Shown here piece by piece: positions 7,411 to 17,650 of a stretch of DNA of 64,000 nucleotides. Source of the stretch: Thermospira aquatica (lineage in GTDB: Bacteria > Spirochaetota > Brevinematia > Brevinematales > Thermospiraceae). A program made the position numbers and the translations under genes. How positions within the stretch are numbered: position 1 is the stretch's first letter; every line of letters begins with the position of its first letter. Under the pieces are notes generated by a model. It worked only from the letters and a program-made list of their open reading frames with translations. It was not told the origin of the DNA and ran no database searches. The stretch spans positions 2,418,001-2,482,000 of the forward strand of contig NZ_CP073355.1 of the NCBI RefSeq assembly GCF_023525255.1, in the 5' to 3' direction.

Positions 7411-8283
7411 CTATTCCTCCTGCCACAAAAACTGAGTATACGCTTGTTTAATACTTTTCAATATCTCCAGTTTTTGGACAGGATCAAACTTTTTTATAAA
7501 CAACATCTTTGCATAACGGTCAAAGGTCTTCAACTGAGCAAGTACACGCTTGTACTCGTCATTGATCTCATCATCAACCACAAGGATAAGCCCCACTTTC
7601 TTATCGTTATAGGTTGTCAACAGTTTTGTAGAATCATTTATGGTATACACATCCCCCTCAGGATAAAAATCCGGGGCTAAAGAGATCCCGAGATTTTTCC
7701 CTTCCACCAGCAGCGTTACAACCTCAGTATACTGCATGAATTTTTGAGGGTATTTTGGATCCTGAGCATCCAGAAGAGAGAAAACAATCACCCCTGTCTC
7801 ATCAATACGATAATTGATCACGGCATTTCGGCTCAGCTTTTGCTTTATCATATTCCATTCTTTGTAGGTCAACTCTGTGCCGTACGGCAACACCACATCA
7901 AAGGCACCTTGTGCATTCTTCTGATAAAACTCATCAAGAACAATCACGTGTCGCTTACGCTTCGTCATCGCATTTGCCCCGTCAATCTTCTCCAGGAGTC
8001 GATCCATTTCTATAATACTTTTCTGTCCTATCGGCAACCGGTACTTAGCGGGAAAATTCGTCGCTAATTTGGCAAAAAGCCGCTCAGTAAACACAACTTC
8101 AATCTCATTCACCTGGGATGCTACAAAAAGTTCATACTGTGAAGGATCAAAACGCATACCCGCAGAAACCTGAAGAACCTGACTCCCATGCCGGAGATAA
8201 ACATCCTTCAGCATGATTATAGGGATTTCCTCTGTTCCGTACTTTTCACAAATACGTAACGCTTCTTCAACAGTAATCTTCAT
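7411..8283 (-). CDS. Unrecognised 290-residue protein linked to the ABC module
   Basis: I do not recognise the family. The protein is soluble by sequence, with no signal peptide or membrane helix, and alternates beta-like and helical stretches; AFDVVLPYGTELTYKEWNMI and VGLILVVDDEINDEYKRVLA are among the more ordered segments. It is first in a transcript with the mini-permease and ATPase: its stop codon touches the next GTG. The start ATG 8283 follows GGAGGAT and a clear promoter at 8315-8343. It may be a cytoplasmic partner of the transporter, by position only. Confidence 0.7.
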   Translation of the reverse strand: MKITVEEALRICEKYGTEEIPIIMLKDVYLRHGSQVLQVSAGMRFDPSQYELFVASQVNEIEVVFTERLFAKLATNFPAKYRLPIGQKSIIEMDRLLEKIDGANAMTKRKRHVIVLDEFYQKNAQGAFDVVLPYGTELTYKEWNMIKQKLSRNAVINYRIDETGVIVFSLLDAQDPKYPQKFMQYTEVVTLLVEGKNLGISLAPDFYPEGDVYTINDSTKLLTTYNDKKVGLILVVDDEINDEYKRVLAQLKTFDRYAKMLFIKKFDPVQKLEILKSIKQAYTQFLWQEE

Positions 8284-15079: not shown

Positions 15080-17302
15080 TTATTTTTTGTAATTTTCGTA
15101 TTTATTGAGAATATTCCCTAAACTATTAGCCAAGTCAACAAGCTCTTTGATAGCCCCCAAACTTTGATTGGAAACTTCGACTGATTGTTTAGAGATTTCA
15201 GACATCTGTTTCATGGTTTCCGCTGCCTGCTGGGATCCAATCTCTTGCTGTTTGGTGGAAATCTCAATTTTCCTCATAAAAGAATAGTTGTTGTTTATCT
15301 CTGTTACAAGATTCTCGGTAGTATCAACAACTTCTTTTACTTTGGAGACGCTCTCTTTCATCTCTTGAACTTCTTTGTTAGAATTTTCGACTATCTTCTC
15401 AATAAAATTCTTGATTTCTTCAGCCGCTGCGGTCACCTTCTTAGCCGAGGCAATTGTTTCTTTCGAAAGCTCCCGGATTTCGGCAGAAACAACACTAAAT
15501 CCCTTACCAACCTCTCCTGCCCTTGCCGCCTCTATAGAAGCATTCAAAGAGAGAAGATTGGTTTTATTTGCCACATCGGTGATGATTTTTACCATCTCAC
15601 TAATAAACACTGATTTCTTGTTTAGATCTATAATCTCTTGCGCATTCTGACCCATCAGATCACTAATACTCATAATCCTCTCATAAGCTCCCTGAAGAGA
15701 AACTTTATTACTCGAAAGAACACTTACCATATTTTTCGTAGATTGCACCAACTGTTCCGTACTATCCGCAATTTGTTTCGCTGTAACAGAGAGTTCTTCT
15801 ATAGTAGCACTCACCTCTGTGATTCCACTCGAATGCTCCGTAGCAGCACTGATCTGTTCTTGACTTGAAGCCTCAAGCTCTTTCGCCACAGCAGTAAGTT
15901 TATTAATACCTTCGTCAATATTGACAAAAATCTCATTTAAATATTGAATAATTTGTTCTTTTTTCTTCTGGTCTTCGAGGATCAACTGCCGATTGAGTTC
16001 TTCTTCTTTGACAAGAAAGAAATGACAATTTTCTGGTTTATTAAATTTATTAAAAATAGCTACAGCCATCGATTCACAACTGTTGTATCCGCATGCGGAA
16101 CAGTTTTTAAAATCCTTTTCTTCTTTCTTTTGCATTGAAAAGTATATCTCTGTTTTTTCTTTATCAGAAGGCGTCTTCACATATTCTTTTACAATATACG
16201 AGAGATTGACATACTGTCTATCATATATTTTTGGTTTCCAGTATTTATCCAATAATTTCTCCAAAAGTTTTGGTCGTTCAGAACGTTTGATAGTTCCCTT
16301 CTTTTTATAAAACTGTATCATCTTTTCTGCTCTTTGCTTCACGTAGTGCTCTACTTGATCCATAGGAAGATTTCTCGCTGTTGTCCCGGTGCCACCATTA
16401 CAACCCATTTCACAATTAAGACAATCAACCAACAGAGGGGCTGCTTTTTTCTCTATGCTGCTAAAAAGCTCGGAAAGATAAGAATAAATAATATGAGGTC
16501 CTTCTATCTTTCGAGTTTTATAGCGTATTTCAGGAACTTCTCTTATAGCCGTTTCCAACAGACCACCAGGAGAAGAAAATAACACTGCTCTTTCAGCGGG
16601 ATCATTATCAAAATCCACTTCAGGATAACTCGAGAGTACAATATGATTGGCTTCAAAATAATCCTGAATACGTTTCATGGTTACATTATAGTCTCCAATA
16701 CCCACTTCGTCAAACTCTCTCCTCTTGGCAATACAGGGTGAAATAACTAACATTTTATGATTTCTATACTGAGGATAAAACTCTCTCACCATTTTCATGG
16801 TATGCATCATCGGACTATCAGCAGGAGCTAAAAACTGCAAGAGCTCAGGTTTATAAAGTTCAATATATGTCACTAAAGCAGGACAGGGTTGAGCGATTAC
16901 CGTTGTGGGCTTCTTCTCTTTTATATATTCAAGATACGATTTTATAGTAAGCTCAGCTCCAAAACTCACATCAAAAATCGCACTCACTCCCATCGATTTG
17001 AGCCAACCATTGAGTCGTAAAAAATTCTCCGGAAAATTTGCTGATACAGCAGGAGCAACAATAGCAACGATGGGTTCCTTTCGCCGGAGTGCTTCCATGG
17101 CTTTTTCAAAATCATCCACTATTACTCTTGCGCCATGAGTACACGCTGAAAGACACTCACCACAACCAATACAAAGATCTGAAATAACCTTGACATAATC
17201 ACCACTACCATCATTGCAGTATTTTACCTGACAAACGGAGATACATCGATGACAATTCACACATTTTTCAGGGTCTACATCAATTATCTTTGCTAAAGGC
17301 AT
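15080..17302 (-). CDS. Soluble chemoreceptor with [FeFe]-hydrogenase-like sensor
   Basis: Likely senses H2 or redox state and signals to CheA. Order of domains: two 4Fe-4S ferredoxin motifs (Cys14/17/20/24 and Cys44/47/50/54); an H-cluster domain with Cys140 in AQPCPAL, Cys190 with Lys193 and Glu196 in SPCIAKRRE, and Cys297/Cys301 in NCEMGCNGG; a further Fe-S motif (Cys401, 404, 409, 426); then a chemoreceptor signalling coiled coil (about 440-735) with tip [20 protein letters not shown]. All four cysteines that would hold the cubane of the H-cluster are present, but the residue before Cys140, a proton-relay Cys in catalytic enzymes, is Pro, as expected of a sensor with weak catalysis. No membrane helix. 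Start ATG 17302 behind AAGGGGG; first gene of the che operon. Confidence 0.92.
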
Positions 17303-17337
17303 TGAAACCCCCTTGTTATAAATATCTTTAATTATTT

Positions 17338-17365
17338 TTTTCGGAATATATTCATTTCAACTTTA
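17338..17365 (-). promoter_or_regulatory. Candidate sigma28 (FliA)-type promoter of the che operon
   Basis: TAAAGTT (17365-17359) and TCCGAAAA (17345-17338) resemble the motility sigma consensus TAAAGTTT / GCCGATAA. TAAA to the -10 box is 16 bp, one more than the classical spacing. It would start transcription about 30 bp before the receptor ATG. No good sigma70 alternative is visible there. Confidence 0.4.
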
Positions 17366-17567: not shown

Positions 17568-17571
17568 AGAA

Positions 17572-17644
17572 TGAGCCGCCTGGGGCTCGAACCCAGGGCC
17601 CTCACATTAAAAGTGTGATGCTCTACCTGCTGAGCTAGCGGCCC
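17572..17644 (-). tRNA. tRNA-Lys (anticodon TTT)
   Basis: 73 nt with a 7-bp acceptor stem (one G-T pair), D-arm AGCTCAGCAGGTAGAGC, anticodon loop CTTTTAA giving anticodon TTT, and T-arm GGGTTCGAGCCC. The discriminator is A and CCA is not encoded. Confidence 0.96.
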
Positions 17645-17650
17645 AACCTC

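Follow-up and report, generated by a model that had tools for sequence, protein, structure and literature searches.

What does a chemoreceptor sense when its input half is built like an [FeFe] hydrogenase, and which output does it serve? The question is raised by a locus in the window (the whole stretch of 64,000 nucleotides that was analysed), where a single soluble protein of 740 residues had been predicted to join two ferredoxin clusters, an H-cluster domain with cubane cysteines at residues 140, 190, 297 and 301, another Fe-S motif and a chemoreceptor signalling domain. The reading frame, the Pfam matches and the cysteine positions confirm both the protein and this order of domains (Table 1). 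The frame lies on the minus strand, with its ATG at 17302 and with coordinates that include the stop, which ends at 15080, and since no run of 19 residues has a mean hydropathy above 1.2, the protein is soluble, without a membrane segment. All of its Pfam domains score over their gathering thresholds, the H-domain (PF02906) with 104.4 bits against a curated cut-off of 22.1 and the MCP signalling domain with 110.3 bits against 34.6. Both N-terminal cysteine sets are kept across the alignment of HydS (sensory-type) proteins, and the signalling domain has an intact hairpin tip (15 residues), one methylation site of strict consensus (10 residues, at 478) and a second, loose one near 682. No PAS domain, the trait of group C (M2f) proteins of the TmHydS type, is found after the C-terminal cluster by Pfam at E ≤ 0.001; the MCP part stands there instead.

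Structure prediction, suggested as a check alongside the original prediction, points the same way. AlphaFold2 models the H-domain with confidence (pLDDT of 80-96 over most of the segment 61-300) and continues it into long MCP-type helices, and the top PDB matches of the model in Foldseek are [FeFe] hydrogenases, at probability 1.00. The mean pLDDT is 74.9, with lower values in the helices, and the relative placement of the two halves is not fixed by the model. Two cysteines, C29 and C294, lie outside the motif sets. The second (window 16421-16423; DCLNC) precedes the third cubane ligand by three residues and is kept in 52 of 54 Spirochaetota HydS proteins, while most of those from Bacillota have Ile or Val at this position (DILNC).

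Table 1. Features of the receptor gene and its operon, in window coordinates.
Feature	Coordinates	Strand	Basis and remarks
tRNA-Lys, then terminator-like hairpins	17571-17645		Hairpins by pattern match only; upstream of the promoter-like site
Promoter-like site, TTGAAA-18-AATAAT	17331..17360	-	Pattern match only; about 30 bases ahead of the receptor gene
HydS-MCP fusion, 740 aa, soluble receptor	15080..17302	-	ORF and translation, Pfam domains, orthologues of the same architecture
Two [4Fe-4S] ferredoxin-like motifs, residues 1-60	17123..17302	-	Cys 14/17/20/24 and 44/47/50/54; Pfam Fer4 near residues 7-58
H-domain (Fe_hyd_lg_C), residues 77-304	16391..17074	-	Pfam E 9.7e-30; cubane Cys 140, 190, 297, 301; K193 retained
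FeS domain PF04060, residues 400-427, Cx2Cx4Cx16C	16022..16105	-	Pfam and Cys positions (Cys 401, 404, 409, 426)
Continuous helices and MCP signalling domain, residues 427-740	15083..16024	-	Pfam MCPsignal 550-703, E 1.2e-31; AlphaFold2 helices
CheB, REC and methylesterase, 354 aa	13999..15063	-	Pfam; 16 bases after the receptor gene
CheR methyltransferase with long C-terminal extension, 483 aa	12521..13972	-	Pfam
Response regulator with SpoIIE/RsbU-type PP2C output, 399 aa	11321..12520	-	Pfam; REC 12-113, SpoIIE 202-397
CheW, 166 aa	10810..11310	-	Pfam
Second, diverged CheW-like protein, 171 aa	10232..10747	-	No Pfam match; overlaps cheA by 23 bases
CheA, 579 aa	8515..10254	-	Pfam; Hpt, HATPase_c and CheW domains

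The pocket of the H-domain differs at three places from that of the HydA encoded in the same genome: its loops read AQPCP, SPC and LNCEMGC, against TTCCP, MPC and VMACRGGC. In CpI numbering, C299 is replaced by P139, M353 by S188 and M497 by L295. The four cubane ligands and the pocket lysine that follows the second loop are kept here and across the aligned HydS clade, the lysine (K193) being the equivalent of the one that in CpI contacts a cyanide of the diiron site. Positions 299, 353 and 497 are also those altered in the HydS proteins TmHydS and TamHydS (PMC8163306, PMC10055695). The original prediction was right that Pro139 takes the place of the proton-relay cysteine, which HydA of the same genome still has, and it read the proline as the sign of a sensor. 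This stands in so far as the group A cysteine has been replaced in a module of HydS type; but Pro139 is near universal in the sampled family (50 of 54 HydS proteins from Spirochaetota with known HydG status), and is therefore a mark of the HydS clade and not of this receptor. As a special mark of the window protein it was rejected, and it does not separate HydS-MCPs from other HydS architectures either.

One could still take the protein for a catalytic hydrogenase with an incidental MCP-like helical domain, given that all ligands of the H-cluster are present and that H2 turnover, though slow, is known from TamHydS and TmHydS. However, C299, M353 and M497 have given way to proline, serine and leucine, the hairpin tip of the MCP domain is intact, the gene stands at the head of a chemosensory operon, and the same H-domain clade is fused elsewhere to kinases, to a sigma-54 activator and to GGDEF-EAL; we consider this reading hardly credible.

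The wider family makes the point about fusions more generally. The window protein has two full-length orthologues of the same architecture, with 79% and 75% identity, and when the architectures of 158 to 162 collected H-domain proteins were assigned by profile HMMs, the C-terminal part was an MCP in about 90 of them, so the architecture is not due to chance. The other outputs are histidine kinases, hybrid kinases (REC and Hpt), CheA-like kinases, sigma-54 activators and GGDEF-EAL. Because the same H-domain is joined to such different partners, the HydS module is best described as a general sensor input. A scan of contigs found HydS relatives in Brevinematales, in many Treponema MAGs, in Ignavibacteriota and in Bacteroidota, and at a threshold of E ≤ 1e-40 a HydS match, most often in an ORF of about 700 aa, was present in 94 of 393 sampled Spirochaetota genomes, belonging to 49 of 168 genera; in most cases HydS is there fused to an MCP. 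The HydS-kinases of Bacteroidota (loops SSPCP, GPC and LFCEGC) form a separate clade, and several of them adjoin a hydrogenase gene.

A few members deserve mention in their own right. Six proteins (L174:118-2841 on the minus strand, L175, L182, L185, L187 and L192) combine an H-domain, a PAS domain, a sigma-54 activator and a Fis-type HTH in one polypeptide and look like one-component HydS transcription activators; their genomes belong to the phylum of L031 (Anaerocolumna). In one Spirochaetota genome (G074) the H-domain is fused to GGDEF and EAL (L074:268-2841, plus strand), a link to cyclic di-GMP. A HydS-MCP filed under a Tannerella (Bacteroidota) MAG (L018) is nested among Treponema sequences and probably comes from a misbinned contig.

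The genes around the receptor speak to its output. Seven minus-strand genes follow one another in the order HydS-MCP, cheB, cheR, REC-PP2C, cheW, cheW-like and cheA, the spacing between neighbours ranging from -23 to +62 bases. That the 171-aa protein is CheW-like is suggested by its sequence and by its position, which is kept in orthologous operons. Pfam detects no P2 (response-regulator binding) domain in the operon CheA, and there is no cheY in the operon, where the only response regulator besides CheB is the REC-SpoIIE/PP2C phosphatase. A 290-aa gene after cheA (7411-8283) was considered as a further member and rejected: it lies 231 bases away, has its own promoter-like site, and no similar gene occurs in the orthologous loci. 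No gene for a target of the PP2C domain adjoins the operon; genes for STAS proteins and for RsbW-like kinases (HATPase_c_2) lie elsewhere in the genome. The same genome also repeats a near-identical 266-aa transposase-like ORF (MEKDFFTLSE...; L220:1028-1828, L221:7056-7856 and L086:5039-5839).

The receptor had been expected to let the cell move in response to H2 or redox state, and the claim of movement is weakened here. A separate locus of the genome holds cheR, cheB, cheA (with P2), cheW, cheX and cheY, of flagellar type, and a third che cluster comes with two MCPs, out of nine MCP matches in all. Since the window receptor has its own CheA-CheW-CheB-CheR cluster with a PP2C regulator, and since the flagellar-type genes are elsewhere, it more probably governs gene expression or physiology than taxis. 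An ordinary chemotaxis receptor, for which the neighbouring che genes would be accessory and which would feed the flagellar motor in H2 or redox taxis, does have points in its favour: spirochaetes of this kind are motile, the HydDB class name is 'chemotactic', and che genes are absent beside most of the other HydS-MCPs in Spirochaetota, which are presumably served by the main system of the cell. But the window clade has a CheA, CheW, CheB and CheR of its own, with a PP2C response regulator in place of CheY; the operon CheA lacks P2; and the signalling domain of HydS-MCP is just 22-28% identical to the MCPs adjoining the other two CheA genes. We therefore hold motor control by this receptor to be improbable.

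The operon is also conserved. The gene order is the same in two other Brevinematales genomes, G099 (L006, SKW211) and G037 (L007, SKW221). Among the 393 Spirochaetota genomes, close orthologues of the REC-PP2C protein (E ≤ 1e-60) occur only in these two, in G014 and in G023. The last of these belongs to another family, and there the cheB-cheR-REC-PP2C-cheW cluster, with the start of cheA included, follows a transmembrane MCP of 4HB-HAMP type. The signalling domain of this G023 operon MCP is 51% identical over its length to that of the window receptor; for the other MCPs of G023 the identities mostly lie at 24-36%, with a maximum of 44% that spans a short stretch. A tree of MCP domains places the window trio together with the G023 operon receptor (support 94, local SH-like), whereas in the tree of H-domains the trio pairs with the HydS-kinase of L029 (support 94), apart from the remaining Brevinematales HydS-MCPs. 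The simplest reading of the two trees is that a HydS module became fused to the receptor in a pre-existing chemosensory system with phosphatase output, that is, a probable swap of sensors. We did not accept as further evidence a swap within the genus, for which G014 (with the REC-PP2C, CheW, CheW2 and CheA genes and no HydS match) might have been called upon; its contig ends inside cheR, and the receptor may be merely unassembled, so this genome is unusable here. G023, with the same operon under an ordinary transmembrane receptor, by contrast provides nature's own control for the exchange of receptors. The putative specificity of the receptor for the operon CheA rests on synteny and on trees of modest, SH-like support.

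These observations can be put together as follows. The HydS half would carry its FeS clusters and, provided that it is matured, an H-cluster as well. Rising H2, or a reduced ferredoxin pool, would change the redox state of the H-cluster or of the other clusters and thereby alter the conformation at the junction of HydS and helices. The MCP hairpins would relay this to the operon CheA through the operon CheW proteins; CheA, which has no P2, would phosphorylate the REC-PP2C protein and CheB, and methylation by CheR and CheB would provide adaptation. By analogy with RsbU, the PP2C domain may then dephosphorylate an anti-sigma antagonist (a STAS protein) and switch gene expression. The domains, the conserved cluster ligands, the gene order, the conservation of the operon, the co-evolution of receptor and che cluster and the STAS and RsbW-like genes are the observed basis of this scheme; the pairing of receptor and CheA, the target of PP2C, the signal and the direction of the response are what we infer from it. 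A point against the putative coupling from HydS to the helices comes from the related group D enzyme TamHydS, in which H2 causes changes of secondary structure but does not reduce the C-terminal cluster (PMC13104023). That there is a private pathway with phosphatase output at all seems to us probable. For the full reading, a cytoplasmic redox/H2 receptor that feeds this pathway, with H2 or the reduced ferredoxin pool acting through the HydS clusters, we put the chances at about even. Either way the locus is compact and self-contained, with receptor, kinase, adaptation enzymes and one phosphatase output, and is thus suited to rebuilding H2 or redox sensing in vitro.

As to whether an H-cluster can be made, the original prediction would have been contradicted by a genome without the HydEFG maturases, and the result is mixed: HydG (535 bits) and HydE (342 bits) are intact and above the NCBIfam cut-offs, while the reading frame of hydF breaks within its G domain and HydF scores 318 bits against a cut-off of 325.6. 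Specifically, in the hydF at L034:10866-12079 (C1, about 1.8029-1.8041 Mb) the P-loop part extends to about L034:11060 and the rest continues from about L034:11084 in another frame, with loss of the G3 (DTPG) region at the interruption. This may be real decay or an error of the assembly, and unless it is the latter, maturation of the H-cluster may be impaired. HydE and HydG above their cut-offs, together with a group A6-like HydA and a HydB, do indicate that the cell handles H2; because of this HydA and HydB, we rejected the idea that the maturases serve only the sensor in this genome.

Across the phylum, the comparison of HydS (393 genomes searched) with HydG (387 genomes, E ≤ 1e-80) gives 56 genomes with both, 38 with HydS only, 70 with HydG only and 223 with neither, so that the two occur together more often than by chance (Fisher p = 5e-10, uncorrected for kinship). 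Some individual loci fit with this. In G235 the HydS-MCP gene is flanked by hydE on one side and hydG-hydF on the other, and in a Kapaibacterium MAG (G395) a HydS hybrid kinase (L029:1965-13021), with hydG and then hydE close by, is the only PF02906 protein found, so that its maturases are apparently kept for a sensor. HydG was nevertheless undetected in 38 of the 94 HydS-bearing Spirochaetota genomes, up to six of which possibly fell outside the HydG search; 27 of the 38 are at least 95% complete, and most belong to family f22. Decay of the pocket is not seen in these: the four cubane cysteines, K193, the SPC loop and the C-terminal cluster are kept in all 14 HydS proteins examined. Gly303 is replaced in 11 of the 14, compared with 9 of 40 from HydG-bearing genomes, a difference confounded by kinship within Treponema. 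One of these genomes is that of Treponema succinifaciens (G156). It encodes a HydS-MCP (L282) and an [FeFe] hydrogenase of group B that shows the motif TSCC (L236:3179-4657, minus strand), and no HydG, HydE or HydF turned up in the 59% of the chromosome that was scanned; unlike H2-producing spirochaetes the species is a pyruvate-formate-lyase fermenter that turns pyruvate to formate (PMC3156407). The HydS family thus does not strictly track the maturases, and a finished H-cluster cannot be assumed throughout it.

A serious rival follows from the interrupted hydF and from the HydG-less genomes that keep the pocket residues. In this account the pathway is unchanged and its input is the redox state of the cell: the H-domain would contain [4Fe-4S] clusters alone, its cubane lacking the diiron partner, and electron exchange between these clusters and ferredoxin would switch the receptor. 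The 38 genomes without detectable HydG, the 14 intact pockets and C-terminal clusters, and the formate fermenter T. succinifaciens, where the scanned part shows none of the three maturases, all speak for it. The same T. succinifaciens also keeps its group B hydrogenase, however, so H-domains persist there for whatever reason; K193 would have no evident role if the diiron site were absent; the window genome has an intact HydE and HydG; and a working H-cluster is present in TmHydS and in TamHydS, the two HydS proteins that have been studied (PMC10055695, PMC8163306). We regard purely FeS-based sensing as a tentative possibility, somewhat unlikely for the window receptor. H2 itself is a plausible signal, and if the private phosphatase-output pathway is accepted, we lean slightly towards it. 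Of the original prediction, the HydS-type module is upheld, with HydE and HydG present, and the response to H2 is weakened by the broken hydF and by the HydS genomes in which HydG was not detected.

The many HydS genes in genomes without detectable HydG make it possible to test directly if an H-cluster is indispensable to the family. They also allow a more speculative view, of which we are doubtful: HydS may be a swappable sensor cartridge that in the Brevinematales clade was grafted onto a phosphatase-output system, and in HydG-less genomes the hydrogenase fold may serve as a receptor for redox state or for a gas, with no diiron site made by HydG. If true, a hydrogenase with all the ligands of the H-cluster would have been turned into a receptor that is no hydrogenase.

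Neither half of the system is new, as the relevant hydrogenase classes have been named and chemosensory clusters with a phosphatase are known. Several relatives of the window HydS-MCP come from Treponema MAGs, and the study of Ballor et al. 2012, to judge by its title, reportedly deals with hydrogenases and hydrogen sensors of termite-gut treponemes. A chemotaxis-linked sensory [FeFe] group had been named correctly: HydDB lists group C2 as 'Chemotactic (putative)', with its role given as undetermined, and group C3 as 'Phosphatase-linked (putative)' (PMC5037454). The window protein agrees with C2 in having a sensory-type H-domain and an MCP in one polypeptide, a match at the level of the definition of the group; it differs in being tied to a dedicated che cluster with PP2C output, which merges the ideas of C2 and C3 in one operon. 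The statement that no experimental study of such a receptor was known also agrees with what we found, since literature searches, with subscription papers outside their scope, returned no experimentally studied HydS chemoreceptor.

Among characterized proteins, TmHydS of Thermotoga maritima (group C, M2f) shares the two N-terminal clusters, the H-domain, the Cx2Cx4Cx16C motif and the replacement of C299, M353 and M497 (PMC8163306, PMC10055695), the motif being the one stated for HydS groups C and D (PMC8163306). It has a C-terminal PAS domain, with Gly at 353 and Ser at 497, where the window protein has an MCP, no PAS domain, and Ser and Leu. TamHydS of Thermoanaerobacter mathranii (group D, M2e) has the same Ser 353 and Leu 497 and a C-terminal cluster, but it has no signalling domain and adjoins a group A hydrogenase operon, in contrast to the MCP and che operon found here. 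On the side of chemosensory systems the closest likeness, by gene content, is with the stage 1 F7 clusters of gammaproteobacteria, which hold two cheW-like genes, cheR, cheB, cheA, a serine phosphatase and an Aer2-like receptor, and in which the receptor input is proposed to have changed by a domain swap (PMC7184735). Those clusters include cheY, cheD and anti-sigma antagonists, whereas the window operon has no CheY and unites REC and phosphatase in one protein, and the window receptor carries a hydrogenase module where the F7 receptor has PAS domains. What is new here is how they are combined: a HydS-MCP comes with a che cluster of its own and with a REC-PP2C protein as the output.
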